NCBI RefSeq assembly: GCF_900188295.1
Contig: NZ_FZNM01000005.1
Span: 62,001 to 126,000, forward strand
Direction of reading: 5' to 3'
DNA length: 64,000 nucleotides
Source of the DNA: Paracoccus sediminis
GTDB lineage: Bacteria; Pseudomonadota; Alphaproteobacteria; Rhodobacterales; Rhodobacteraceae
In this document: piece by piece, positions 42,566-57,024 of the stretch
How positions within the stretch are numbered: the stretch's first letter is position 1
Layout: every line of letters begins with the position of its first letter
The notes under the pieces: model-generated
Told to the model about the DNA's origin: nothing
What the model saw: the letters and a program-made list of their open reading frames with translations, nothing else
Databases searched by the model: none
Position numbers and translations under genes: made by a program

Positions 42566-43384
42566 ATGGCAGCGCGCACGTTCTGGAAGGGGTATCTGAC
42601 ACTGTCGCGGGTGACATGCCCCGTCAGCATGATCCCCGCGACCACCGAGGGCGAGAAGGTGCGGTTCCACACGCTGAACGCCGAAACCGGCAACCGCGTC
42701 GTCAGCCAATATGTCGATGCCGTGACCCAAAGGCCGGTACGCGAGCACGATCAGGTCAAGGGCTATCAACGCGGCGAGGACGATCATGTCATTCTGGAGG
42801 ACGAGGAGATCGAGGCCGTCGCCCTGGACAGCACCCGCACCATCGACATCGGCATGTTCGTGCCCGACCGCTCGATCGGCTGGGTCTGGTACGACACGCC
42901 GCATTTCCTGATGCCGGGGGACGGGGCGGGGCAGGACGCCTTTGCCGTGATCCGCGACGCCATGGCCACGACCGGCACCGCGGGCCTGTCCCGGCTGGTG
43001 ATGTATCGCCGCGAACGCGCCGTGATGCTGAAGCCGCGCGGCAGGGGGATCGTCCTGTGGACGCTGCGCTTTGGCGACGAGATACGCGACGAGGGCGAGG
43101 TTTTCGACCTGCCCGCTATCGGCGCGCCCGAGTCCGGGGCACTGGACCTGATGCGCAGGCTGATCGGGGAACGCACGGTGTCCTGGGATGCGGGCATGGT
43201 GGACGATCCGGTCCAGGACCGGCTGCTGGACATCATCGCGGCCAAGAAAAAGGCCAAACGGCGCGCCGGCCGCGCCAAGGCCGCACGGGCCGAGGATGCC
43301 GCGAACCGGTCCAACGTCATCGACATCATGGAGGCGCTGACGAAAAGCCTGGGGTCCGAAAGGGGTGGTGGCGGCAGCCGGTAA
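42566..43384 (+). CDS. ku: Ku protein (non-homologous end joining), copy 1
   Basis: This 272-residue protein is bacterial Ku: ARTFWKGYLTLSRVTCPVSMIPATTEGEKVRFHTLNAETGNRVVSQYVDAVTQRPV, DQVKGYQRGEDDHVILEDEEIEAVAL and LIGERTVSWDAGMVDDPVQDRL. The C-terminus carries a basic Lys/Arg/Ala tail (AKKKAKRRAGRAKAARAE) typical of Ku tails that bind DNA. It forms a homodimer ring on double-strand ends. No LigD is in the window. A second, different Ku gene follows convergently 27 bases away. Confidence 0.93.
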   Translation: MAARTFWKGYLTLSRVTCPVSMIPATTEGEKVRFHTLNAETGNRVVSQYVDAVTQRPVREHDQVKGYQRGEDDHVILEDEEIEAVALDSTRTIDIGMFVPDRSIGWVWYDTPHFLMPGDGAGQDAFAVIRDAMATTGTAGLSRLVMYRRERAVMLKPRGRGIVLWTLRFGDEIRDEGEVFDLPAIGAPESGALDLMRRLIGERTVSWDAGMVDDPVQDRLLDIIAAKKKAKRRAGRAKAARAEDAANRSNVIDIMEALTKSLGSERGGGGSR

Positions 43385-43411
43385 GGGGACGGCGGCCTGG
43401 CCGCCAGGGAT

Positions 43412-44266
43412 TCACCCGGCCTTCTTGTCCGACCGGCCCGACCGCGCGGTCCGGGGCGCGCCGCGGGGCTTTGCGGGCCGGCGGGCGGGGTCGGTCCGGG
43501 CCGCGCTGTCGCGCAGGGCCGCCAGCAGATCGACGCTCTCGCAGGGGGCGGGTTCCCTGGGGGGCGGCAGTCTGCGACCCTCGGCCTTGGCGCGGACCAG
43601 ATCGGCCAGGGCATCCTCGTAACGGTCAACGACCGTGCCGGGATCGAAAGCACCGCGCCGGGTTGCGACAAGGGCGCAGGCCAGATCCAGCATCTCGTCC
43701 CCGGTCCGGGTGTCGGGCAGATGCGCGAACGCCTGGGCGGGATCGCGCACCTCGTAGGCGAAGTTCAGCGTCGTGCCGATCAGCCCGTCGTGATGGGCGC
43801 GGATCAGCACGGTCCTGGCCCGCCGGAACAGCACCGTCTGCGCCAGGGCCGCCACCTTTTCGGCCCGCATCCCGTCCCGGATCAGGGCAAAGGCCTTGAT
43901 GGCGCCGGGATCGGCATGGGCGATGTAATAAGGCTTGTCGAAATACAGGTCGTCGATGTCGTCGCAGCCGACAAAGGCACTGACCGACAAGGTCTTGTCG
44001 TTGTCGGGCAGGGCGGCCTCGATCTCGTCGGGGTCCAGCATGATGTGGTCGCCGGCCGCAGTCTCGTATCCCTTGACCTGATCGTCGGGGTCCACGGGCT
44101 TGCCCGTGCCGCTGTCCACGAAGATGCGGCGGACGCGGTTGCCGGTCTTTCGGTTCAGCGTGTGAAACCCGATGCGGTCCGATGTCGAGGACGCCGGATA
44201 GAGCGCGACGGCGCAGCCGATCTCGGCGATCTTCAGGAAACCCTTCCAGCTTGCCCTGGGTGCCAT
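43412..44266 (-). CDS. ku: Ku protein (non-homologous end joining), copy 2
   Basis: This 284-residue Ku paralogue has PRASWKGFLKIAEIGCAVALYPASSTSDRIGFHTLNRKTGNRVRRIFVDSGTGKPVDPDDQVKGYETAAGDHIMLDPDEIEAALPDNDKTLSV and AHLPDTRTGDEMLDLACALV. Divergence from copy 1 is large, so this is an old duplication and not a recent copy. Its tail (PRTARSGRSDKKAG) is basic. It lies 15 bases downstream of the GT-glycosidase gene on the same strand and may be the last gene of that operon. Multiple Ku genes occur in several alphaproteobacteria. Confidence 0.92.
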   Translation of the reverse strand: MAPRASWKGFLKIAEIGCAVALYPASSTSDRIGFHTLNRKTGNRVRRIFVDSGTGKPVDPDDQVKGYETAAGDHIMLDPDEIEAALPDNDKTLSVSAFVGCDDIDDLYFDKPYYIAHADPGAIKAFALIRDGMRAEKVAALAQTVLFRRARTVLIRAHHDGLIGTTLNFAYEVRDPAQAFAHLPDTRTGDEMLDLACALVATRRGAFDPGTVVDRYEDALADLVRAKAEGRRLPPPREPAPCESVDLLAALRDSAARTDPARRPAKPRGAPRTARSGRSDKKAG

Positions 44267-44281
44267 GGCGAACCTTTCCGA

Positions 44282-46603
44282 TCAAGGCGGATCCGAACGG
44301 CTCAACGGAAATCCGGTTCCATCCCGCATCCGCCCCGTGACCTGCCGGACCTGGTCCGCCAAAGGCCCCTCGATCAACCGCGCGCCGCCCGAGGGATCGT
44401 CGCCCAGAAGCCCGTTGGGACACAGCCGGTCGTCGTCCCAGCCGGGATGGTTGGCCACAGGATACAGGCAGACGCCCTCGACACGGGCGCCCCGCGCGCG
44501 GGCGCGGGCCACCTGATCGCGGACATAGGCGAACCAGGACGCGCGCCTTGCGCCTTCGGTCCCGGTTTCGGCGATCATCAGGGGGCGGTCATACCGCGAC
44601 GCGACCTCGACCAGCAGGTCGGACAGGGGGCGATAGCGGGGATGGTCCATGTCGATGGGCGGGCCGCCGTGGATCCACTGGTTGTTCCAGTAGTAATTGA
44701 CCCCGACGATATCCAGCAGGGACGGATCGCCGCCCAGTTGCGGCCACATCCGGCCCGAGATCAGCTCGAACGCCTGGAACTGCGCGTCGTGATGGCCTCG
44801 CGCCTCCCACAGCGGCTTGCCGTTCTGCGGGTCGTGATGGATCGCCAACAACGGTTCGGCGTGAACGAAACGCGCGCGCGGATCGACGGCGCGCAATTCG
44901 CGCATCGCGGCGATCGACGCGCGGGCCAACTGGCATTTCAGCTCGTATCCGCGATGGGACGCGAAGGGGTTGAGATACCGCGCGTCCCCCCCGGCCCAGG
45001 ACAGGAAGCTGATCTCGTTGACCGGGCACCAGAAGGGCACCGCGTCGGTGATGTCCCGATGGTGCCGGGCCACGATGCGGGCGAAACCCGCGAAACGGTC
45101 CACGAAGGCGGGGGTCCAGATGTCCAGATCGTCCGGCCATCCGTAATGCAGCAGATCCCAGATGACCTGCGTGCCGGTGTCGGCCGCGGCCTGCATCATC
45201 GGCGTCAGGTTGGAAAGGTCGTACCGGCCCGGCGCGGTCTCGATCCGGTGCCACCGCGCGCCGTCGCGGCAGGCGCGGATGCCCAGATCCGCCAGTTGCC
45301 GGTAATCCTGCGCGGCATGGGTGTCGTGGCCGATGGCGGCGATCAGATCCAGGCGGCGCCCGTTGCGCAGGCGGTGGGTCGATGCCTCCCATCCGCCCAG
45401 CACGACGCTGGCAAAGGTCGAGGGCGGCGGCGCGGGCCGGCGTTCGGCCAGCACCCGGTCAATCAGCGCCCGCCATTGCGGCACCACGACCGGCGCGGAA
45501 TAGGTGGCCCGGACATGATCGCGCAGGGCGGCGCCCAGCCGTCGGCGCAGGGGCGCGTCGTCCAGCAGCCGCGTCATGGCCCCGGCCACGGCGGCCGGAT
45601 CCTCGTGCGGCACGAACAGGCCGCTGATGCCATCGGTGATCTGTTGCAGGGCGCCGTTGTCGGGGGTGGCGATGACGGGCAGGCCCGCCGCCCCGGCCTC
45701 GGCGATGACATGGGGCATCCCCTCGCCCCGCGACAGCCAGCAGAAGATGTCCATGGCGGCCAGCAGATCCGGCACGTCCGGGCGGTTGCCGGTAAAGATG
45801 ATGCGGTGGCCCAGGGGCGCGGCCATGCGGCGCAACTCGTCGGCATAGTCCGGCATGAAGGCATCCGGGCCGCCGACGATCACGAAGCGCGCCCTGGGAT
45901 GGGCCGGTGCAACGCGCAGCGCGGCGGCGATGACATCCTCGACCCGCTTCTTGCGGTCCAGGCGGCCGACCCAGCCGATCAGGATCTCATCCGCAGCGAT
46001 GCCCAGGGACGCACGGACCCCATCGCGCCGGTCGGGGCGGAATTCCTCCAGATCGACCATGGACGGGATTTCCACCGCATCCCCCGGCCGATCCGGCATC
46101 CCGCCCGCCGCCGCCGCCCGGATGCTGTCGCAGACCCCGACATAGCGGGCCGTCAGATGCTTTGGTCCCGCCAGGGCCTCGGACACCAGCCCGCCATGTT
46201 CGATCAAGGGCGGGCGCAGGGCCATCCCTTCCAGGGCAGGATAGATGTCGGCGACGTTCTGGCAGGACACGACCACATCGGCGCCCGAGAGCGCGCGGCG
46301 CAGGTAATCGACCGTCTCCTCGAACCCCAGGGCATAGGGGGCGGTGTCCACCTGCACGCCCAGCTCGGCCAGTTGCCGGTGGGTCTGGTCGGGCATCCCG
46401 TCCTTGCGGAAACAGGGGATGACGGTGATGCGATACCGGTCGCGCGGCAGGGTGCGGGCCAGCAGGCGGATTTCGGTCTCCTCGCCGCCCACGACCAGCC
46501 AGGCCATGACGAAGGTAATGCGGATCAGGCGGTGGCCGTCATGGGGCGCGGGAAAGGTTTCGGGGGGCACGAAGCCCCAGACCTGCCGGTCGTCCATGCT
46601 CAT
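44282..46603 (-). CDS. GT4 glycosyltransferase fused to a GH-A clan glycosidase-like domain
   Basis: This 773-residue protein has two unrelated domains in one frame. Residues about 1-390 are a GT-B fold GT4 glycosyltransferase (IRITFVMAWLVVGGEETEIRLLARTL, GWVGRLDRKKRVEDVI, CWLSRGEGMPHVIAEAGAAGLPVIATPDNG). Residues about 393-773 resemble family-1-like beta-glycosidases: YDLSNLTPMMQAAADTGTQVIWDLLHYGWPDDLDIW, WCPVNEISFLSWAG with acid/base Glu530 and LMIAETGTEG with candidate nucleophile Glu679. Both catalytic glutamates are retained. No signal peptide, so it acts in the cytoplasm. The ATG overlaps the preceding dehydrogenase stop by 4 bases. Function may be trimming or building of a glycan, not known. 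Confidence 0.85.
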   Translation of the reverse strand: MSMDDRQVWGFVPPETFPAPHDGHRLIRITFVMAWLVVGGEETEIRLLARTLPRDRYRITVIPCFRKDGMPDQTHRQLAELGVQVDTAPYALGFEETVDYLRRALSGADVVVSCQNVADIYPALEGMALRPPLIEHGGLVSEALAGPKHLTARYVGVCDSIRAAAAGGMPDRPGDAVEIPSMVDLEEFRPDRRDGVRASLGIAADEILIGWVGRLDRKKRVEDVIAAALRVAPAHPRARFVIVGGPDAFMPDYADELRRMAAPLGHRIIFTGNRPDVPDLLAAMDIFCWLSRGEGMPHVIAEAGAAGLPVIATPDNGALQQITDGISGLFVPHEDPAAVAGAMTRLLDDAPLRRRLGAALRDHVRATYSAPVVVPQWRALIDRVLAERRPAPPPSTFASVVLGGWEASTHRLRNGRRLDLIAAIGHDTHAAQDYRQLADLGIRACRDGARWHRIETAPGRYDLSNLTPMMQAAADTGTQVIWDLLHYGWPDDLDIWTPAFVDRFAGFARIVARHHRDITDAVPFWCPVNEISFLSWAGGDARYLNPFASHRGYELKCQLARASIAAMRELRAVDPRARFVHAEPLLAIHHDPQNGKPLWEARGHHDAQFQAFELISGRMWPQLGGDPSLLDIVGVNYYWNNQWIHGGPPIDMDHPRYRPLSDLLVEVASRYDRPLMIAETGTEGARRASWFAYVRDQVARARARGARVEGVCLYPVANHPGWDDDRLCPNGLLGDDPSGGARLIEGPLADQVRQVTGRMRDGTGFPLSRSDPP

Positions 46604-47697
46604 GCCTCGAACACGATTTGCAGGAAATCGGGGCGTTCGGCCAGCAGGCGGCGCAGGAAATCGGGCGCGTCGCCATAGGGCACGACATGGGTAATCATGT
46701 GCTGCCGGATCAGGTGGCCTTCCGTCTGCAACAGCCGCAGCGTTTCCCCCGCCAGCCGCCGCTGGTCCCAGGCATGGGCCACCGGGCGCGGCATCCGGTT
46801 GATCTGCGCGCAGCGGATCGCCAACCCGTTGTGGTGGAACTCCTCGCCCAGCCGGGCGCCGTCCATGCCGCCCTGATAAAAGGCCAGGTCGATCACCGTG
46901 CCCTGCGGGCGCAGCGCCTGAAGGCAGCGGTGCAGGCTGTCGGACCGCGCGCGGGTCTGGAACACGTATTCCGCCCCGCGCCCGCCGACCTTGTGGTGCC
47001 AGGCCGATTTGGCGTATCGCACGGCCTCGTCCTCGGCCATGGCGGCAAAGCCCATCCTGCGCGCGATGTCCTGGCGGAAGGGCGACGGGTCCACCACGAC
47101 GATTTCCGAGGCCCCGCCCTGGCGCGCGAACAGCGCGCAGAACAGCCCCACCGTGCCGCCGCCCCAGACCAGGACGGGGCGACCTTCGACCCCCGCGCCC
47201 AGATACGGGACCGATGCGCCGAACTGGTCGGCATCGGCATGCAGGATGCCGTTGGCGGCGATCGGCCCCATCTGCGCCACGAAGATGCCCAGGATCGGAT
47301 CCAGGCCGTCGGGCAACGCCAGCAGCAGGTCATGGGCGGGGTTCGCGGTGTGCCCGGTCTTGTGGCCAAAGGTCGTGGCCACGACATCGCCGCTGGCAAA
47401 GCCCGGCGCGCGGGCGTCGATGACGCGCGCTACCTCCATATAGCCCAGGAAATTCACCGGGAAATGCGCGGACGGCTCTCCGGGAACGAACAGGCCCTGC
47501 CCGTCGTCCCAGCGGCTGTGCAGATAGGGATTGCTGCCTTTCAGGAAGGTCAGCTCGGTCCCCGCCGACAGGCCCGTGTACATCAGGTCCAGCCGCACCT
47601 GCCCGTCGCCCGCCGGGCCTTCGTCATAGCCGAAGAAATACGGCTCGTGCGGGCGTTCGATCCCCAGGGACCGGATGTGGCGATGCTCATGCGGCAT
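46600..47697 (-). CDS. zinc-type alcohol dehydrogenase-like (MDR) oxidoreductase
   Basis: This 365-residue MDR-superfamily protein has a GroES-like N-terminal part (DLMYTGLSAGTELTFLKGSNPY, VNFLGYMEVARVIDARAPGFASGDVVAT) and a Rossmann part (VLVWGGGTVGLFCALFARQGGASEIVVVDPS). The usual catalytic zinc Cys and structural zinc Cys are not evident, so it is a zinc-free or atypical member. Related proteins occur beside Gfo/Idh/MocA genes in polysaccharide clusters as a bipartite oxidoreductase, and that is the situation here. The start at ATG 47697 is preferred over GTG 47724 and overlaps the upstream stop by 11 bases. Confidence 0.82.
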   Translation of the reverse strand: MPHEHRHIRSLGIERPHEPYFFGYDEGPAGDGQVRLDLMYTGLSAGTELTFLKGSNPYLHSRWDDGQGLFVPGEPSAHFPVNFLGYMEVARVIDARAPGFASGDVVATTFGHKTGHTANPAHDLLLALPDGLDPILGIFVAQMGPIAANGILHADADQFGASVPYLGAGVEGRPVLVWGGGTVGLFCALFARQGGASEIVVVDPSPFRQDIARRMGFAAMAEDEAVRYAKSAWHHKVGGRGAEYVFQTRARSDSLHRCLQALRPQGTVIDLAFYQGGMDGARLGEEFHHNGLAIRCAQINRMPRPVAHAWDQRRLAGETLRLLQTEGHLIRQHMITHVVPYGDAPDFLRRLLAERPDFLQIVFEA

Positions 47698-49777
47698 GGT
47701 CGGAGCCTTGCGCAGCGGATGCACGAAAGATGGGCTGCGGGTCAGCCCGCAGCCCCTCCATCGTCACAAGGGCGCCGTCGCGGGCGGACTGCGCGACCGC
47801 CAGGGCCACGCGGTGGGTCATCAGCGCCTCGGCGTAGGGACAGCGGATGCGGTTTTCGCGGCCCTGGACGGCCTCGATGAAATCCCGGTCCTCGCGCCAG
47901 ACGGGATCGCCCTGCGCATGGCGGACGGGACGCCCCCGGCCCACATCGATCATCAGGTCGTGGTCGGTGATCTCCAACGCCATGCCGTCGGCAAAGACGT
48001 GCAGGCCGACGCGGTGGTTCCACCGCAAAAGACAGGTGGCCGACAGGTTGGCGATGGCGCCGCTGGCGAAGCGCAGCGTGGCCGCCGTCGCGGTGGGCAC
48101 GGTCAGGCCCTGGAAATCGGCGCGGTCGCGGCGGGCGGCCATACCGAACACCTCGGTCACGTCGCCGGCCAGGAACCGGGCCGCGTCGATCACATGGGTC
48201 GCCTGTTCGACCACCTGCCCGCCGCTGCGGTCGTGGTCCCACCACCATTGCGGGGGCGGCGTCTGGTCCAGCCAGAATCCCTGGATCAGATGCGCGGGGT
48301 TCTGCGCCAGATGCGCCCGCGCCTCGTCCATCGTGTCCAGATAGCGCCAGTGGTATCCCACCGCCGTCACCAGTCCCGCCGCCGCCACCTCGGCCGCGAT
48401 CTCCTCGGCCAGGGCGAGGTTCAGCGAGACGGGCTTTTCGACAAAGAGCGGCAGCCCGCGCGCGATGCAGGCGCGTTCCGGCGCGCCATGGGCAAAGGGC
48501 GGCACGCAGATATAGACGGCGTCCAGATCCTCGGCCGCCAGCATGGATTCGTGATCGGCATAGGCCACCGCGCCGTTCGCCTCGGCCGCTTGGCGCGCGC
48601 GGTCCCCGTCAGGGTCGCAGACGGCGGCGATCTGCACGTCCTCCATCGTGCGCAGCACGCCGAAATGGCGGTGCGCGATGCCGCCCGCGCCGATGAAGCC
48701 TAGCCGTGTCTTGGTCATTCCGTCCTCGCTTCGCTGCCGCATCACATCGCGGTAGATCGTTTGAACTTGGTCCGCCATGCGGGCGGCGGTAAAGCGTTCG
48801 GCCCAGCGGCGGCGGCCGTCGCGGGCCACGGCGGCGCGGCGCACGGGATCGGCCAAGGCCTCGGCAAGCGCATCGGCCAGGGCGCGCGACCGTCGCGGCG
48901 GGACCAGCCAGGGATGATCGGACCCCAGGGCCTCGGCCGTGCCGGTCACGTCCGTCGCGACGACCGGCAGGCCGATGGCCATGGCCTCGAGCACGACCAG
49001 CGGCAGCCCCTCGAACCCCGAGGGCAGAACCAGCAGGTCCGCGGCGGCCATCCGCGCGGGGACATCGTCGCGCCGGCCCAGGAAACGCACGGCATCCGAC
49101 AATCCCAGCCGCGCCGCCCAGCTTCGCAGGCGGTCCATGCCCGGCCCCTGCCCGACCAGATCCAGCCGCGCGCGCATCCCCCGGCGGTGCAGGCGCGCCA
49201 GGGCCGTCAGCAGCGTCCGATGCAGCTTTTGCGGGGTGAAACGGCCGACGCACAGCAGGGTCAGCCCGTCCCCGCCCCGATGATCCACCCCCGGACGGGC
49301 CGTGCCGTTCGGGACGGCATGAACCGGCAGGCCGCGTCCGATGGACCTCATCGCGTCGCGCCATCCCTGTGCCGCCGCGTCTGACACGGCGATCAGACGG
49401 TCCACGCCGTCGCTGGCGTCGGCATAGGCCTCGATCTGGCGGGAACAGGTCAAAAGCCAGGGCAGATGTTCAGTGCGGATCACCGCCATGCCCGCCCGCG
49501 CCGCAGCGGCCGCGATGGCATGGCCTTCCCAGCCGATCCCCGCGTGAAGATGGACGATCCGCGCCCGGCTGGCCGCGATCAGGGCCGGGGCGTCGCCGGG
49601 ATCGAAGGTCCGGGCCGCGATCCCCGACGCCGCGGCCCGTGCGGCCAGGGCCTGTCCCGCGGCGTGATCGGGAAATGCCAGCGTCGCCATGCCGGGCGGC
49701 AGACCTGCCGCCAGCGTCAGCATGTGTTCGCCGACGCCCGATGGGTCGGGACTGTCTGTCACCAGCAGGGCGCGCAT
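47687..49777 (-). CDS. GT4 glycosyltransferase fused to Gfo/Idh/MocA oxidoreductase
   Basis: This 696-residue frame joins two complete enzymes with no stop between. Residues 1-353 are a GT-B GT4 transferase (LLVTDSPDPSGVGEHMLTLAAGLP, LLCVGRFTPQKLHRTLLTALARL, VLPSGFEGLPLVVLEAMAIGLPVVATDVTG). Residues 354-696 start MTKTRLGFIGAGGIAHRHFGVL and contain the lysine motif VEKPVSLN and GGQVVEQATHVIDAARFL, a full Gfo/Idh/MocA protein. An internal ATG at 48718 has GAGG 5 bases upstream, so the second domain could also be made separately. Start ATG 49777 lies 10 bases after the preceding gene; its own ribosome site is weak. Confidence 0.82.
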   Translation of the reverse strand: MRALLVTDSPDPSGVGEHMLTLAAGLPPGMATLAFPDHAAGQALAARAAASGIAARTFDPGDAPALIAASRARIVHLHAGIGWEGHAIAAAAARAGMAVIRTEHLPWLLTCSRQIEAYADASDGVDRLIAVSDAAAQGWRDAMRSIGRGLPVHAVPNGTARPGVDHRGGDGLTLLCVGRFTPQKLHRTLLTALARLHRRGMRARLDLVGQGPGMDRLRSWAARLGLSDAVRFLGRRDDVPARMAAADLLVLPSGFEGLPLVVLEAMAIGLPVVATDVTGTAEALGSDHPWLVPPRRSRALADALAEALADPVRRAAVARDGRRRWAERFTAARMADQVQTIYRDVMRQRSEDGMTKTRLGFIGAGGIAHRHFGVLRTMEDVQIAAVCDPDGDRARQAAEANGAVAYADHESMLAAEDLDAVYICVPPFAHGAPERACIARGLPLFVEKPVSLNLALAEEIAAEVAAAGLVTAVGYHWRYLDTMDEARAHLAQNPAHLIQGFWLDQTPPPQWWWDHDRSGGQVVEQATHVIDAARFLAGDVTEVFGMAARRDRADFQGLTVPTATAATLRFASGAIANLSATCLLRWNHRVGLHVFADGMALEITDHDLMIDVGRGRPVRHAQGDPVWREDRDFIEAVQGRENRIRCPYAEALMTHRVALAVAQSARDGALVTMEGLRADPQPIFRASAAQGSDHAA

Positions 49778-49787
49778 CACGATGCCG

Positions 49788-52124
49788 TCACGCCAGGGGC
49801 GCCATCGCGCCCGGCGCGGCCAGCCGTTGGTCCAGCCGCCCATGGAGGGCAAGCGCCTGCGCCACCACCCGATCCATGCTGCACCAGCGATAGCCGGCCA
49901 GACGCCCCGCGAAGATCACGTCCGGTTCGGCTGCCGCAAGCGCGTCATAGCGGCGGAACAGCGCCAGATTTTCGGGCGTCGGGACAGGATAGAACGGATC
50001 GCCGTCGTCTGCCGGGTATTCATGGGTGATCGTGGTCCGCGCGTGGATCTGTCCGGTCAGATGCTTGTGTTCGACGATCCGCGACCAGGGCACGTCCTCG
50101 GCCGGGAACGCGACGACCCCGGCCTGCTGGAACTGCGGCCGGTCCAGGGTTTCATGCCGGAACCGCAGGCTGCGATAGGGCAGCGCGCCGAAGCGGTGCC
50201 CGAAATAGGCGTCGATGGGACCGGTATAGACCGTCAGGCGGCCCGTGTCCGCTGCGCCGAGGTCATGGAAATCGGTGCCAAGCGCCACCTCGATGCCGGG
50301 ATGATCCAGCATCCGTTCGAACATCCGGGTATAGCCGTCGCGCGGCATCGCCTGATGCCGGTCGGTGAAACGGCGGTCGTCGGCATCCGTCCGGGCCGTC
50401 ACGCCCGACGCGGCAGACGGGTCCAGCAGCGACGGATCCAGGCCCCACCGCTTGCGCGAACTGCCCTGAAGGAACCGTTCGTACAGATCGGTCCCGACCG
50501 CCTTCACCATGGCGTCGCGCGCGGTGCGGATTTCCGGGACGGGCGGCGCGATGCGGGCCAGAAAGGTCCGGGCCTCGGCTTCGGTGCGCATGTCAAGGCC
50601 GTGGACGGCGTTCAGCGTCGTGCGGTTGATCGGCATTGGCACCGTCATGTCCCCCACGCGGGCCATCACCCGGTGTTCATAAGGGCGCCATTCGGTGAAC
50701 CGGCCCAGCCAGGCGAACACCTCGTCGCTGTCGGTGTGGAAAACATGCGGGCCATAGCGATGGACCCGGATCCCCGCCTCGTCCGGGCTGTCAAAGGCGT
50801 TGCCGGCGATGTGGTCGCGTCGGTCCACCAGCAACACGCGTTTGCCCGATTCCTCGGCGAACTGGCGCGCCAGCACTGACCCGGCAAAGCCCGCGCCGCA
50901 GATCGTCACGTCGTGCTTTCGGGCGCCGCGCAGGGTCGGCGGGGCGGGCACGTTGACGGCCGGTCCGATGGCCAGCCGCGTGCCGGACACCCGGTTCAGG
51001 CAGGCCCGCATCCGCTGGAAGGTGTTGTCCCAGCTGAGATCGGACAGCAGCCGGTCCGCCGCGTCGCGCCACGCCGCGGGCTGCCTGCTGCGGGCCAGGG
51101 CGGATTCGCAGGCGCGCACGAAGGCCGGGGCGTCGTTGGCGATGTGGACCGCCGACAGTCCGCCGTAATGGCGCACCACATCGCGCACCGGGGTGGATAC
51201 AACCTGCACCCCGCCCGCCAGATATTCCGGCGTCTTGGTGGGGGATATGAAGCGCGTCGCGTCGTTCATCGCGAACGGCATCAGCGCCACGTCCCATCCC
51301 GCCAGATAGTCCGGCAACCGGTCATAGGTCCGCTGCCCCAGCCAGTGGATGTTGGGCGCGCGGGGCAGATCGTCCGGGCTGATCTTGGCAAGCGGGCCGA
51401 TCATCACCACCGACCAGTCGGGATGGGCCTTGGCCACTGCCGCGATCAGGCCAAGGTCCAGCCGTTCGTCGATGACCCCGTAATAGCCCATCCGGGGCCT
51501 GGGCAGCACGGCCTGGTCCGCGGGTTCGGCCACGGTGCCGCGCGCGCGGGCGAAATGGGTCGTATCGACCGATGACGGAAAGGGGTGGATGTTGCGGTGC
51601 CGCCCGGCCTTGGCCTCGAAGATCGAATGGCCACCGGTAAAGACGACATCCGCCGCCGCCATCAGCGCGGCCTCGTTCGCGGCCAGGCCGGGCGGGGCAA
51701 AGCGAAAGGCCGACAGTTCGTCCATGCAGTCATAGACCACGGCCGCCGCATCGACATGAGCCGCGATGGGCCACATCATCGGCGTATAGAACCACAGGAC
51801 CGGGCGATGAATGCCGGTCAGGCCCATCATCTGATCCAGAAGATCCGACAGGGCGCGGGCCTGATCCTCGGGCGGCCACCCGGCGGGAACGCGGGGACGG
51901 ATGGACTGGACGGTCGTGCCGTCGAAGGCGTGGAATTCCAGATAGGGCAGGTGGTGATCGGTGGGGATCGCCTCCTCCCAGAAGAACAGGCGGTAATGAT
52001 CGGCAAAGCGCGACATCAGGTGCTGCGGGCGCTGCAACACGAAATCCCAGCGGAGATGCGAAAAGCAGATCAGAGCGGGGCGGGCCGGGGGAACAAGGGG
52101 GATCAACGGGTTGGCATTGGTCAT
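49788..52124 (-). CDS. glycosyltransferase fused to UDP-galactopyranose mutase
   Basis: This 778-residue protein has a TuaH-like glycosyltransferase N-terminal half (ICFSHLRWDFVLQRPQHLMSRFADHYRLFFWEE, YGVIDERLDLGLIAAVAKAHPDWSVVMIGP, FISPTKTPEYLAGGVQVVSTPVRDV) and, from residue about 401, a complete UDP-galactopyranose mutase: FAD motif DVTICGAGFAGSVLARQFAEESGKRVLLVDRRDHIAGNAFD, RYGPHVFHTDSDEVFAWLGRFTEW and MPINRTTLNAVHG. The mutase interconverts UDP-Galp and UDP-Galf. Fusion to a transferase suggests galactofuranose is made and transferred in one polypeptide. Start at 52124 overlaps the previous gene by 4 bases. Confidence 0.86.
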   Translation of the reverse strand: MTNANPLIPLVPPARPALICFSHLRWDFVLQRPQHLMSRFADHYRLFFWEEAIPTDHHLPYLEFHAFDGTTVQSIRPRVPAGWPPEDQARALSDLLDQMMGLTGIHRPVLWFYTPMMWPIAAHVDAAAVVYDCMDELSAFRFAPPGLAANEAALMAAADVVFTGGHSIFEAKAGRHRNIHPFPSSVDTTHFARARGTVAEPADQAVLPRPRMGYYGVIDERLDLGLIAAVAKAHPDWSVVMIGPLAKISPDDLPRAPNIHWLGQRTYDRLPDYLAGWDVALMPFAMNDATRFISPTKTPEYLAGGVQVVSTPVRDVVRHYGGLSAVHIANDAPAFVRACESALARSRQPAAWRDAADRLLSDLSWDNTFQRMRACLNRVSGTRLAIGPAVNVPAPPTLRGARKHDVTICGAGFAGSVLARQFAEESGKRVLLVDRRDHIAGNAFDSPDEAGIRVHRYGPHVFHTDSDEVFAWLGRFTEWRPYEHRVMARVGDMTVPMPINRTTLNAVHGLDMRTEAEARTFLARIAPPVPEIRTARDAMVKAVGTDLYERFLQGSSRKRWGLDPSLLDPSAASGVTARTDADDRRFTDRHQAMPRDGYTRMFERMLDHPGIEVALGTDFHDLGAADTGRLTVYTGPIDAYFGHRFGALPYRSLRFRHETLDRPQFQQAGVVAFPAEDVPWSRIVEHKHLTGQIHARTTITHEYPADDGDPFYPVPTPENLALFRRYDALAAAEPDVIFAGRLAGYRWCSMDRVVAQALALHGRLDQRLAAPGAMAPLA

Positions 52125-53281
52125 GGCACCATCCTTGCCGTGCGGATCTGGGTCAGCGTGTCGGCCAGCCGGGCCATGCTGGGCCGCCATCCCCAGCGGG
52201 ACAGGGCCACGTCGCGCGGGTCATAGCGCGCATGATCGCGCAGCAGCCTGTCCAGGGCCTCGGCGAAATCGGCGCCCTCATGGGCCGCGATCCCGGTTTC
52301 CGGCGTGATGAATTGCAGCCCGCAGGACAGACGGGCATTGGCCAGGACCGGCAGGCCCGCCAACTGGTATTCGGTCAGGATCGCGGGCGCGCCATCGTCC
52401 TCGCCGCAGACCACGCCCACGCGGGCGCGGTTGATCTGACGGTTCACCTCGTCATGGCTGATCGCCGGGGGGCCGACGATGTCCAGATCCAGCCCCTCGC
52501 GCGCGGCACGGTCGCGGAATTCATCGGTCTGGTGGCCATAGCCCACGACCAGCAGCCCCCGCGTGCCGGGACGCCGCGCCATGGCGTCGAACAGGATGTC
52601 GTGGCGCTTGTAGGGCTGGGCGCAGGCCACATAGACCACATCGCGGTCCTTGTCGGCGCCGGTCGGAAAGAAGGTCTGGCCAGACGCGAAGGCCGGGCCG
52701 ATGGGCAGCACCAAGGTCCGCGCACCCGGAATCCGCGCCTCGATTTCCCGCGACTGCCAGTCGGCGCCGGTCAGAAACAGGTCGAAACGCGCGGCCAGAC
52801 CGTCGGGGATGCGCAACGCCGGGGCGTCGATCGAATTGTAGATCTTCAGCGACGCGGCGCAGGCGTCCAGCAGCGCGGCGTCCACCCCCAGCCCCCACAC
52901 GCACAGGATGTCGGGCGGACCGACCGCGCGGATGAAGTCCACCGCCTCGGCCGAGCCATAGGGGGCAGGTCCATCGGCGCGAAAAACGCGCCGGGTCAGC
53001 ACGGGGTTCAACGGATCGGGGGTGCCCAGGGGCCGGCGGGCGTCGCGGTCGGATTCCCCGTCGCGTCCCGCAAAGGTCCAGATCTCGGCATGATCGACCA
53101 CCCCGCCGGCCACCGCCGCCAAGGGCAGGCGTTCCAGATAGCCGCCCGTCACCGCAACCGACCGGGAACGGTCCGGCCGGGCAAAGGCAGGCTGCCAGCC
53201 ATCGTCCTTGACCGGATTTTGTGGAACGCTGGGCGGAACTTGCGAGCAAAAGTCGGAAATCGCAACGATCCAGCCGGGCAT
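52121..53281 (-). CDS. TuaH-like glycosyltransferase, first gene of the glycan operon
   Basis: This protein of 386 residues (from ATG 53281) is a GT-B fold glycosyltransferase. The C-terminal half has DRDVVYVACAQPYKRHDILFDAMARRPGTRGLLVVGYG and the E-x7-E donor-binding motif in VVCGEDDGAPAILTEYQLAGLPVLANARLSCGLQFI. The N-terminal part contains YNSIDAPALRIPDGLAARFDLFLTGADWQ, similar to the TuaH/biofilm GTs that act with the Glf-fused neighbour. An ATG at 53422 is possible but the added residues lie in the divergent promoter region and look non-coding. Operon direction is minus; six genes down to ku copy 2 follow. Confidence 0.8.
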   Translation of the reverse strand: MPGWIVAISDFCSQVPPSVPQNPVKDDGWQPAFARPDRSRSVAVTGGYLERLPLAAVAGGVVDHAEIWTFAGRDGESDRDARRPLGTPDPLNPVLTRRVFRADGPAPYGSAEAVDFIRAVGPPDILCVWGLGVDAALLDACAASLKIYNSIDAPALRIPDGLAARFDLFLTGADWQSREIEARIPGARTLVLPIGPAFASGQTFFPTGADKDRDVVYVACAQPYKRHDILFDAMARRPGTRGLLVVGYGHQTDEFRDRAAREGLDLDIVGPPAISHDEVNRQINRARVGVVCGEDDGAPAILTEYQLAGLPVLANARLSCGLQFITPETGIAAHEGADFAEALDRLLRDHARYDPRDVALSRWGWRPSMARLADTLTQIRTARMVP

Positions 53282-53442
53282 GGTTCCATCCGCCATTGAA
53301 GCGACAGTCAACGGGGCGTGTTCACGAAAGGTTGCGTTGATCTTTATTAACGTGACAATCCCGTCCGGCGGTGGCGCGAAATTGGGCGTCGACGGCGCCG
53401 CGGTTTCCGGCGACAGTCCCATTCAGCCATACGGAGGACGGG

Positions 53443-54436: not shown

Positions 54437-55678
54437 TCAGCCCCATTTCGCCAGCGACGCCGCAAGGTCCGGGTGATCCCTGGCGGCGGCCTGCAACGTC
54501 TCGCCCGCCGCGGCGGCCTGCCACGCGCGGCGAATGGCGCGCACGCCCGCCGCGGGGCCGTTCGGATGGCCGTGGATGCCGCCGCCGCCCAGATACATCA
54601 GGTCCAGCGTGCGGCCGGTGCGTTCATATGTTTCCACCGCTTGCCCGCCCCACTGGCCGGAACAGGCCACAGGCAGCGGCCGGTCGGCATCGGAAAAGAT
54701 CGGCGTCATCACATCATGGAAAGATTTTACAAAGCTGTCGTCCGGTTCCCAATATTTCGCCCGTATCCCGTTGATCTGGAACTGGTCCACGCCCAGCAAG
54801 CGCCAGATTTTCTGATAGGCGCGGAACTCCATCCCCAGGGCCGGATGGCGGGTCAGGATGTCCCAGCCGTTGCGGTGCGCGTGCAGGCAAAGCGCCGACC
54901 GCTTGCGCAGGAAGGCCATGCCGCCATGGCCCACCGAATTGATGTTGACCACCGCCGCATTGCCCCCCGCCGCCAGAACATGATCGTGGTTGCGCATCAT
55001 CACGTCCGGGTCGGCGGACGAGATGCCGAAGGCGTACATGACCGTCTTGCCGGTCCGGTCGGCGTGGCGCCGGATCACCGGCATGATCGCATCGACCCGC
55101 GCCGCCAGCGGCGAATAGCCGGGCGACATCAGCTTTTCGTCGTCCTTGATGAAATCCACCCCGGCCTCGCACAGGATCTGGACGACCTGCGCGGTATCCG
55201 GGGGCGAAAGCCCCAGCGAGGGCTTGATGATGGACGCGATCATCGGGCCTTCGGACACCCCCATCAGGCGCCGCGATCCCGCGATGCCGAATTGCGGGCC
55301 GGGATGGCCGGCAAAGGCGGACGGCAGGTCGAAATCCATGACGCGCACGCCGGTCAGCCCCCGGATGGCATGAACGCCGCCCACGGTGATCGTCATCAGC
55401 GCGGCGATGTCGGTGCCGATGGCCTCCAGGGGCCAGGCGATCGTCACGTCGGCGCGGTGAAAGGGACCGGGCGTGTCGGTCGGAAAGCCGGGGGTTTCGG
55501 CGTCGGGCAAGGGGTCGATCCGCTCGACTCGGGCGGCATGGCGGGCCTTCAGCGCCTCGGTTTCCCCCGGCAGGTCGGTGAAGGTTCCGGTGGACTGGTC
55601 GGCGGCGATCTTTGCGGCCAATGCCGCGATGCTGCCCGGCGTCTCGATGCGATAGGTGACGCGGATATGGTCGGTCAT
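54437..55678 (-). CDS. RuBisCO-like protein, probably 3-oxo-isoapionate-4-phosphate decarboxylase or transcarboxylase (OiaX/OiaT)
   Basis: This 413-residue protein has the RuBisCO large-subunit fold. It retains IASIIKPSLGLSPPDTAQ, where the second Lys of the usual KPK is Ser, and GVDFIKDDEKLMSPGYSPL, with the metal-ligand K-D-D-E set including the carbamylated Lys. AHRNGWDILTRHPALGMEF follows. It overlaps a DUF1537 kinase by 4 bases and lies close to a D-apionate oxidoisomerase. This trio is known from D-apionate pathways in which the RuBisCO-like protein acts on 3-oxo-isoapionate-4-phosphate. Whether it decarboxylates or transcarboxylates cannot be read. It is not a CO2-fixing RuBisCO. Confidence 0.8.
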   Translation of the reverse strand: MTDHIRVTYRIETPGSIAALAAKIAADQSTGTFTDLPGETEALKARHAARVERIDPLPDAETPGFPTDTPGPFHRADVTIAWPLEAIGTDIAALMTITVGGVHAIRGLTGVRVMDFDLPSAFAGHPGPQFGIAGSRRLMGVSEGPMIASIIKPSLGLSPPDTAQVVQILCEAGVDFIKDDEKLMSPGYSPLAARVDAIMPVIRRHADRTGKTVMYAFGISSADPDVMMRNHDHVLAAGGNAAVVNINSVGHGGMAFLRKRSALCLHAHRNGWDILTRHPALGMEFRAYQKIWRLLGVDQFQINGIRAKYWEPDDSFVKSFHDVMTPIFSDADRPLPVACSGQWGGQAVETYERTGRTLDLMYLGGGGIHGHPNGPAAGVRAIRRAWQAAAAGETLQAAARDHPDLAASLAKWG

Positions 55679-57024
55679 CTTGCCCCCCTTGGACCGCCGC
55701 CATCGCGGATCCAGCCGAAGTAATCCTCGGATCCCATCTGCCCGCCTTTCAGCGCGATCTCCAGCCCATCGTGGGGACCGTCGCCAAAGGCCCGGCACAG
55801 GGCCGCGCCGGGAACGGTCGGCGCCACCGCGACAAGCGCCGACAGCCCCAGCTGCCGCATTCCGTGCCCCGACGTGTCCCCGCCCGAAATCACCGCCCGC
55901 CGGATGTTCGTCGCGCGCAGCGTCGCGTCCAGGATCCGGCCCAGCGATTCCCCGATGCGGCGGTTGGCGGCGGCGGGGTCCATGCCGCTGCGGGCAAGGG
56001 CCGCGCGAAAGGCATCGACCTGCGGGCCTTGGCCGGATGCGGAATGGACCAGCGGGCTGTGGCCCGCCGATGCGGCGGCACGGGCGGCCTGGGTCAGGCG
56101 CCGTTCCTCGGCCGCCCTGTCGGCATCGCCGCCGGTCACGGCGCGGGCGTCAAAGGGCAGCAGCGCGAATCCGTTTCGCTCCGCCCAGTCCAGTTGCCGG
56201 GCGGTGGTGGGGGACACCGATCCCGACACCGCCACGATCCTGTCGCAACGGGCCACGCCGCCGGGCGGCGACACGGGCGGAATCGCGCCGCTGTCCTGCC
56301 AATGGCGGACAAGCGCGTATTCGACGCCCTGGCTGCCGGCGACAAGGCCCAGTTCCGCGCGGTTTTCCCAGATCAGCCGCCCCGCCGCCGTTTCGCTGGC
56401 CGGATCCATGCAGTCGATGGACAGGATCCGGGCGCCGGTCGCCAGGATCGACTGCAAGAACCGCGGGTCGGCAAGCCTTTCCAGCTCGATCAACGCCGAA
56501 GGCAGGTCGGTCTGGGTCGCCAGATGCCGCAACAGGTCGGATTCGCCCATCGGCGTGACCGGGTGACGCGCCATGACCGGATGACGGTCCAGCCGGAACA
56601 CCCCGTCCAGCGTGCCCGCGAACAGATGGCCAAAGGCCTGATAGCGACGCATCTGCGGCGCGGCGGTCAACAGGGGCACGGCGCGCGCGGGACGCGCCCG
56701 CAGCGCGATCTCGATCGCCGCGCCGATGGATCCGCTGTGGGGCGCGGAATCGAAGGTCGAGCAGATCTTGTAATGCAGGATCGGCGCGCCCAGCCGGTCC
56801 AGCCATTCCAGCATCGGAGGCAGGTTTCGCGCCATCCAGGCGGGGTCGTGGCTGCGCGCGGTCGTGGCAAGACCGACAGCCCGCCGATCCGCGAAACGGG
56901 CCGCCAGATCGTCCGAAGGGATGTCGGTGAACAGAACCGACGGCAGTCCGGCAAAGGCCAGCACCTCCATCACCGCGGCCGATCCGGTGAAATCGTCGCC
57001 CAGCCATGTCACCCACGGCGCCAT
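55675..57024 (-). CDS. oiaK: DUF1537 (four-carbon acid sugar kinase) protein, probably 3-oxo-isoapionate kinase OiaK
   Basis: This 449-residue kinase shows an N-terminal substrate domain (VTWLGDDFTGSAAVMEVLAFAGLPSVLFTD, HYKICSTFDSAPHSGSIGAAIEIAL) and a C-terminal ATP-binding domain (RRAVISGGDTSGHGMRQLGLSAL, LALKGGQMGSEDYFGWI-type end). The DUF1537 family phosphorylates 2-oxo- or 3-oxo-sugar acids. Next to the RuBisCO-like protein, the likely substrate is 3-oxo-isoapionate. Other DUF1537 members act on oxo-tetronate. It is divergent from the D-apionate oxidoisomerase gene across an 85-base promoter region. Confidence 0.82.
   Translation of the reverse strand: MAPWVTWLGDDFTGSAAVMEVLAFAGLPSVLFTDIPSDDLAARFADRRAVGLATTARSHDPAWMARNLPPMLEWLDRLGAPILHYKICSTFDSAPHSGSIGAAIEIALRARPARAVPLLTAAPQMRRYQAFGHLFAGTLDGVFRLDRHPVMARHPVTPMGESDLLRHLATQTDLPSALIELERLADPRFLQSILATGARILSIDCMDPASETAAGRLIWENRAELGLVAGSQGVEYALVRHWQDSGAIPPVSPPGGVARCDRIVAVSGSVSPTTARQLDWAERNGFALLPFDARAVTGGDADRAAEERRLTQAARAAASAGHSPLVHSASGQGPQVDAFRAALARSGMDPAAANRRIGESLGRILDATLRATNIRRAVISGGDTSGHGMRQLGLSALVAVAPTVPGAALCRAFGDGPHDGLEIALKGGQMGSEDYFGWIRDGGGPRGAR

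Follow-up and report, generated by a model that had tools for sequence, protein, structure and literature searches.

A Paracoccus sediminis operon of glycosyltransferase fusions with a predicted galactofuranose step and a probable general-stress setting

Within a 64,000-nucleotide stretch of the Paracoccus sediminis genome (the window; the host genome has 3.64 Mb), we found a five-gene operon in which glycosyltransferases (GTs) are fused to a predicted UDP-galactopyranose mutase (UGM), to a Gfo/Idh/MocA oxidoreductase (Gfo) and to a GH1-like glycosidase domain (GH). We consider it fairly probable that this is an accessory general-stress operon making a galactofuranose-containing glycoconjugate, which would be exported and is perhaps a glycolipid. 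No description of the operon was found in the open-licence PubMed Central literature, which misses most subscription journals, in keeping with the initial annotation, which had named it the best candidate in the window for an undescribed system.

Gene layout and domain content

By reading of the open reading frames (ORFs), the five minus-strand genes A-B-C-D-E (53281-44282) are tightly packed. The stop of A and the start of B share an ATGA overlap, as do D and E; the end of C and gene D have 38 bases in common (47687..49777 and 46600..47724), and B and C are 10 bases apart. These A/B, D/E and C/D overlaps are a sign of translational coupling, and on coordinates the five genes are one coupled operon (Table 1). 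The initial annotation had reported three consecutive fused genes in one minus-strand operon, and this held: the fused ORFs are intact at 49788-52124 (B), 47687-49777 (C) and 44282-46603 (E), and Pfam and NCBIfam confirmed their domains. The ORF of gene A is open to 53422, but its start was corrected to 53281 (or 53296), likely on the evidence of relatives, which start at the equivalent position.

Table 1. Features of the operon and its immediate surroundings, in positions of the window.
Feature	Coordinates	Strand	Basis
Gene A: GT4-like glycosyltransferase	52121..53281	-	Glycos_transf_1, above cut-off at 43.5 bits
Gene B, N-terminal half: glycosyltransferase with a distant likeness to TuaH	50940..52124	-	Pfam/NCBIfam
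Gene B, C-terminal half: predicted UDP-galactopyranose mutase (UGM)	49788..50921	-	Curated cut-offs exceeded for GLF and TIGR00031
Gene C, N-terminal half: GT4 glycosyltransferase	48722..49777	-	Glyco_trans_1_4 122 bits
Gene C, C-terminal half: Gfo/Idh/MocA oxidoreductase	47687..48715	-	GFO_IDH_MocA 88.7 bits
Gene D: atypical medium-chain dehydrogenase (MDR)	46600..47724	-	ADH_zinc_N over cut-off
Gene E, N-terminal half: GT4 glycosyltransferase, its fold spanning residues 25-388	45440..46603	-	GT4 107 bits; AlphaFold2 model
Gene E, C-terminal half: GH1-like glycosidase, predicted	44282..45433	-	Model fold; both Glu invariant
EcfG-like site GCAAC-N-CGTT before gene A	53310..53335	-	Read in sequence; recurs in Paracoccus group
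EcfG-type site GGAAC-N16-CGTT of ku, inside the end of E	44296..44320	-	Motif reading
ku gene, stress-regulon neighbour, outside the glycan pathway	43412..44266	-	TIGR02772 236 bits versus cut-off 150

The GT half of B matches Glyco_trans_1_4 at residues 250-365 of the longer ORF 49788-52190. It also accounts for the TuaH-like glycosyltransferase listed by the initial annotation: resemblance to the teichuronic acid glycosyltransferase TuaH exists, but in NCBIfam it belongs to this half and not to gene A, and at 74.7 bits against the cut-off of 550 of NF047676 it lies far outside TuaH membership. The C-terminal half of B scored above the curated cut-offs of both mutase models (GLF, 211.9 versus 26.3 bits; TIGR00031, 320.9 versus 303.75 bits), and its nearest solved chain is a UGM (3hdq, E 5.3e-125); at family level it is a UDP-galactopyranose mutase, with that activity predicted. 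The Gfo half of C stayed well below the IolG model (TIGR04380, 109.4 bits versus a cut-off of 355), and its relatives in the PDB include inositol dehydrogenases and DgpA. Gene D, which is 62-84% identical to six relatives, had only ADH_zinc_N over the cut-off in Pfam and no ADH_N match, which divergence may hide.

The C-terminal part of E has no Pfam match over cut-off; since Glyco_hydro_1 reached 11.9 bits against a gathering cut-off of 22.6, we call the domain GH1-like and do not file it as GH1. Searched against the PDB, a profile of 11 GH sequences picked up beta-glucosidases of the GH1 type (best 1.7e-8). We modelled the whole fusion with AlphaFold2 on 43 aligned sequences (pLDDT 89.4, pTM 0.89; one sequence alone gave pLDDT 39.5), and obtained a GT4 fold joined to a GH1-type fold. 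Residues 391-766 match GH1 beta-glycosidases (1np2, Z 33.8, 2.9 Å over 345 residues), and the GT half has its best fold match in HepE (4xsr, Z 39.5, 2.2 Å over 343 residues), with further resemblance to the small-molecule GTs BshA and MshA (Z 34-36). In the barrel of the model, Asn529-Glu530 follows the strand 524-528 and Glu679 stands at the end of the strand 675-679, as expected of GH1. Both catalytic Glu residues noted by the initial annotation in a GH-A clan glycosidase-like domain are borne out: E530 (in PVNEIS, codon 45016-45014) and E679 (in IAETG, codon 44569-44567) are invariant in the alignment of 43 sequences and again across 13 divergent GHs, both sets having the window's own sequence among them, and in the second set Asn529, His486, Tyr638 and Trp722 are invariant as well. 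We take E530, E679, His486, Tyr638 and Trp722 to be GH1 active-site positions. On the model, the C-terminal part of E has a GH1-type fold and is a predicted glycosidase or transglycosidase.

Fusions and core enzymes in other genomes

A scan of named genomes returned 285 GH relatives; we read the 80 best loci, so that the counts lean towards close relatives: 28 are Paracoccus-like (27 so named and one Alphaproteobacteria MAG) and 52 are others, some of them cut by contig ends. The GH domain of E is present in 35 of 125 genomes of the genus; E was matched in 3 of 198 genomes of the family sample (E <= 1e-40), and the GH domain occurs in 5 of 385 genomes of the class sample.

The halves of E were fused in 25 of the 28 Paracoccus-like loci and separate in 3; among the other 52 loci they were fused in 45 and separate in 5, with the GT missing in 2. 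The GT and UGM of B were fused in 22 Paracoccus-like loci and separate in 1 (2 lacked the GT, 1 the UGM and 2 both), and fused in 27 of the others and separate in 7 (15 without UGM, 1 without GT, 2 without both); where both halves lay nearby, this amounts to fusion in 22/23 and 27/34, respectively. Gene C varied more within the Paracoccus group, with GT and Gfo fused in 15 loci and separate in 11 (1 without GT, 1 without both), compared with 36 fused and 8 separate elsewhere. Gfo and MDR were separate in all 27 Paracoccus-like loci that had them and fused in 31 of 44 others, one lineage carrying GT-Gfo-MDR in a single chain. Further arrangements include A, B and UGM in one frame (L127), GH-GT-flavoenzyme chains of ~1240 residues in Pantoea and Acinetobacter, and a GH-GT fusion with a separate glf in Comamonas.

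Since the fusions recur in relatives, sequencing error was rejected as their source. The order A-B-C-D-E recurs in other families, and in the best 80 of 285 loci the split genes mostly keep the same neighbours. The survey of synteny and unfused versions that the initial annotation had proposed thus revealed a conserved order, and its refuting case, genes always split and set among unrelated neighbours, was not what we observed. Its idea of repeated recruitment of one domain type found no support in that form, as the fusions join conserved-order neighbours and differ between lineages; from gene order, they look like merged operon neighbours. They may hold consecutive enzymes together, and substrate channelling, also suggested at the outset, is possible.

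Deinococcus gobiensis carries the GH in fusion with an acyl-CoA dehydrogenase-like part (L163, 9929-12277), and a similarly annotated protein lies under the GH match of D. proteolyticus. A GH-GT fusion is kept in a 1.1 Mb genome, in a stretch of 26% GC (L201, 3040-5376), where nearby genes look, by reading of the sequence, like carotenoid synthesis; the module would here have survived genome reduction, perhaps in a symbiont. An Amino_oxidase-family flavoprotein, fused to the same kind of GT, stands in place of the mutase in Pantoea, Acinetobacter and Methylomagnum (L161, 11974-15684; L167, 1371-3995). The two of these flavoproteins that were typed are PRK07208-like, below cut-offs, and the family is a possible non-orthologous mutase.

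From gene content, the core of the system is the GH with a B-type GT and UGM, and its carriers range from alpha-, beta- and gammaproteobacteria to Deinococcus. The three adjoin in Azospirillum, Skermanella, Mesorhizobium and Deinococcus actinosclerus; in D. gobiensis the GT and glf lie ~3 kb on from the GH fusion, and in D. proteolyticus no glf is annotated in the stretch examined around the GH. A phylum sample gave 14 GH matches in 13 of 398 genomes. Among the 12 of these 14 loci that were examined (the window and one Paracoccus being left out), a B-type GT was nearby in 10 and UGM or a UGM-like flavoenzyme in 9; two had the GH only, with no GT or UGM nearby, and one had GH and GT only. In Methylomagnum, galT and galK are part of the same gene run as the GH locus.

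The galactofuranose link drawn by the initial annotation is reinforced by 16 genomes in which the operon has the B-type GT and no UGM, namely P. aerius from the Paracoccus group and 15 from the 52 others: in each of them a single UGM match lies elsewhere in the genome. Likewise, in a sample of 121 genomes from the family of an Agrobacterium locus (L129), of which 28 have UGM and 10 the GH, UGM was present in 10/10 GH carriers versus 18/111 non-carriers (Fisher 1.0e-7, relatedness ignored). Across the genus, UGM occurred in 34/35 GH carriers versus 58/90 non-carriers; the contrast carries less weight here, UGM being common in the genus (92/125 overall).

The initial annotation had seen no exporter. 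This is true of the window operon, whose five genes include no exporter, lipid, polymerase or lipid-carrier gene, but it does not extend to the relatives: an MsbA-like exporter is the next gene after the GH in four Azospirillaceae loci (three typed), and an MsbA-like ABC protein stands next to the GH in five more (5 of 12 in the phylum sample), nine in all. The three typed exporters scored 369-377 bits against the MsbA_rel model, below its cut-off of 780; their relation to MsbA weakly favours an amphipathic product.

EcfG-type promoter sites and flanking genes

The stress-regulon context was absent from the initial annotation. Two regulon studies give the EcfG1 site of R. etli as GGAAC-N16-CGTT (PMC3892343) and the EcfG site of S. 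melonis as GGAAC-N17-20-GTT, with several GCAAC sites among the top genes (PMC6599016). We scanned for GGAAC-N16-18-GTT within 200 bp upstream, with dinucleotide shuffles and the opposite strand as controls; the GTT form was fixed after the upstream regions of A had been inspected and before those of B were seen. Outside the Paracoccus group, the site was found before B in 34 of 49 loci (shuffles, mean 0.45, maximum 2; opposite strand, 3) and before A in 20 of 43 (shuffles, mean 0.41, maximum 2; opposite strand, 3), and in 0/45, 0/44 and 1/50 loci before C, D and E, respectively. Most B upstream regions of these relatives carry promoter sites of the kind that defines the EcfG regulon. Their spacing is regular, with a spacer of 17 in 33 of 35 B sites and a position of -60 to -65 in 26 of 35. 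The strict CGTT form was present in only 3/43 loci before A and 0/49 before B, and the base preceding GTT in the B sites was never C. For comparison, the site occurs in 38 of 668 non-operon ORFs of such loci. Its GGAAC form was present in none of the 300-bp upstream regions of the 16 UGM genes outside the operon, which speaks against a tight coupling of those genes to it.

Within the Paracoccus group, a B site was found in only 1 of 25 loci. When the GCAAC variant was allowed, which we did after looking at the A upstream sequences, 12 of 19 A upstreams, the window's included, had a site (11 GCAAC, 1 GGAAC; shuffle mean 0.28, maximum 2; opposite strand, 1) and 7 had none. The window itself has only the GCAAC variant, before A. 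A GGAAC-N15-CGTT at 53264-53287 covers the start codon of A and was for that reason rejected as a promoter. The ku gene adjoining the operon has the strict site in 8 of 9 Paracoccus-group upstreams, the window included, and the second ku gene in 7 of 8, the window's being the one without, which indicates that the motif works as a marker in this group. The genome also encodes NepR, the EcfG anti-sigma factor. From these sites we infer that EcfG would control the operon.

Flanking genes were clustered in 52 other loci (51 of the best-80 set, without the short L147, plus L159). Twelve clusters recur in at least five of the 52 loci, and one representative was typed of each of those typed. The commonest are a PAS-domain HWE kinase (11 loci), DUF892 (11) and a large catalase (10), followed by an oligopeptide ABC ATPase (9 loci, in what is probably a broad cluster) and an SDR (7); of the seven clusters found in five loci, two were typed, as GSDH/PEBP and cold-shock proteins, and five are untyped. 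DUF892 has 62 copies in 20 genomes (~103 Mb), picked for genus spread after the flank counts were known, and lies in 7 of the 20 corresponding loci versus ~0.25 expected. LOV and other HWE/HisKA2 kinases are described as acting on the general stress response (PMC4438053, PMC12148442), and the flanking HWE kinase reads as LOV-type from its sequence.

Ku is part of 8 of 28 Paracoccus-group loci and 4 of 52 others. Annotated examples of the operon neighbourhood are R. leguminosarum pR132503 and Paracoccus AK26 pAK1; in pAK1, a GT and E are all that accompanies Ku-LigD-Ku. The window has two convergent ku genes (42566-44266) with 27 bases between their ends and, unlike related loci, no ligD between them, and the LigD_N domain was not found in its own genome (a Paracoccus LigD does score), which would leave Ku here lacking the ligase that normally partners it. 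On the other side of the operon, the 54437-57024 region encodes OiaX, a RuBisCO-like 3-oxo-isoapionate-4-phosphate decarboxylase (772 bits versus a cut-off of 700), beside an OiaK-like kinase (450.9 bits, below the cut-off of 700); this region is probably devoted to apiose/isoapionate catabolism.

Proposed pathway, alternatives and known systems

In the pathway that we favour, stress would lead EcfG to transcribe the operon, as the promoter sites suggest. UGM, assigned at family level, would convert UDP-galactopyranose to UDP-galactofuranose, a likely donor, and sugars would be attached in the cytoplasm by the GTs of A, B, C and E. Between them, Gfo and MDR might oxidise and reduce one hydroxyl, giving a rarer sugar. 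The GH1-like domain, which should be cytoplasmic because it is welded to a GT, would trim or transglycosylate the product before it reaches an exporter, MsbA-like where encoded; such an exporter would suggest that the product is a glycolipid or oligosaccharide of amphipathic character and not a Wzx/Wzy polymer. Sequence evidence gives good backing to EcfG control and to the use of UDP-galactofuranose, whereas the product, the GH reaction and a common product for Gfo, MDR and GH are proposals.

The product could instead be a soluble cytoplasmic glycoside, such as a compatible solute or small protectant, which the GTs would make and the GH would recycle, with no exporter needed. We regard this as unlikely. 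It would fit the absence of an exporter from the window operon, the oligopeptide-type ABC ATPase as sole transporter part among the typed recurrent flanks (five clusters untyped), the BshA- and MshA-like fold of the GT of E, and the stress regulation, which suits solutes; however, the MsbA-like exporter follows the GH in nine loci, four GTs and a UGM are much for one small solute, and the top match of that same GT fold is HepE, whose role is in heterocyst envelope polysaccharide. There is also a small chance that we are looking at an ordinary locus for surface polysaccharide or LPS decoration in stress islands, with export and polymerisation genes elsewhere. UGM and GT4 enzymes are typical of surface polysaccharide loci, and a UGM elsewhere in the genome can be shared. 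In addition, the genes for survival of desiccation listed by a Salmonella transposon screen include a putative UGM together with the putative GT encoded right after it (PMC5596212). The typed recurrent flanks, with five clusters untyped, include no flippase, polymerase or initiating transferase, though, and both the GH1-like enzyme welded to a cytoplasmic GT in the core and the operon's own promoter sites speak against it.

A very improbable explanation is that the GH1-like domain no longer hydrolyses and serves just for scaffolding or binding, the fusions being neutral by-products of lost stop codons. The weak score against the GH1 model and the variation of the fusion state between loci would agree with it, but the invariance of Asn529-Glu530, Glu679, His486, Tyr638 and Trp722 in 13 divergent sequences and the confidently modelled fold of E argue against it.

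Several known systems come close to the operon in part. With the Glf galactofuranose pathways of bacterial galactan loci, the operon shares a mutase family over curated cut-offs and GT partners; it differs in the fusion of the mutase to a GT, in its GH1-like, Gfo and MDR partners, in its stress-type promoters and in having no polymerase or lipid-carrier gene. HepE (Alr3699) of Anabaena, the best fold match of the GT half of E, has ~20% identity, and its solved chain is without a GH part. With the EcfG general stress regulon of Alphaproteobacteria, the operon shares the promoter type and the Ku and catalase neighbours. The S. melonis regulon list includes Ku and several glycosyltransferases in the accessible part of PMC6599016, and we did not recognise the operon genes among the published regulon genes in the available portions of that study or of the R. 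etli study (PMC3892343). UGM pathways and stress regulons are known kinds of system, and we did not find their combination in this operon described in the open-licence PubMed Central literature.

Plant SFR2 belongs to GH1. It is described as a galactolipid:galactolipid galactosyltransferase (GGGT) of freezing and dehydration tolerance (PMC8065580, PMC11525325). Its likeness to the operon GH is one of working idea, an analogy in the GH1-type barrel, the stress setting and a possible galactose transfer; the operon GH is bacterial, cytoplasmic, GT-fused and UGM-linked. A bolder and quite doubtful extension by this analogy would be that bacteria widely make a stress galactofuranose glycolipid, remodelled by a GT-joined cytoplasmic GH1-type transglycosidase as a convergent SFR2 counterpart.

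Most of what is known of galactofuranose comes from pathogen and fungal envelopes. The operon would tie this sugar to general stress responses in bacteria of soil and plants, and its multi-enzyme fusions let pathway steps be predicted. If our reading is true, rhizobia, Paracoccus, Azospirillum, Pantoea and Deinococcus, which have the core enzymes in common, may make a stress-protective glycoconjugate that has gone unnoticed.
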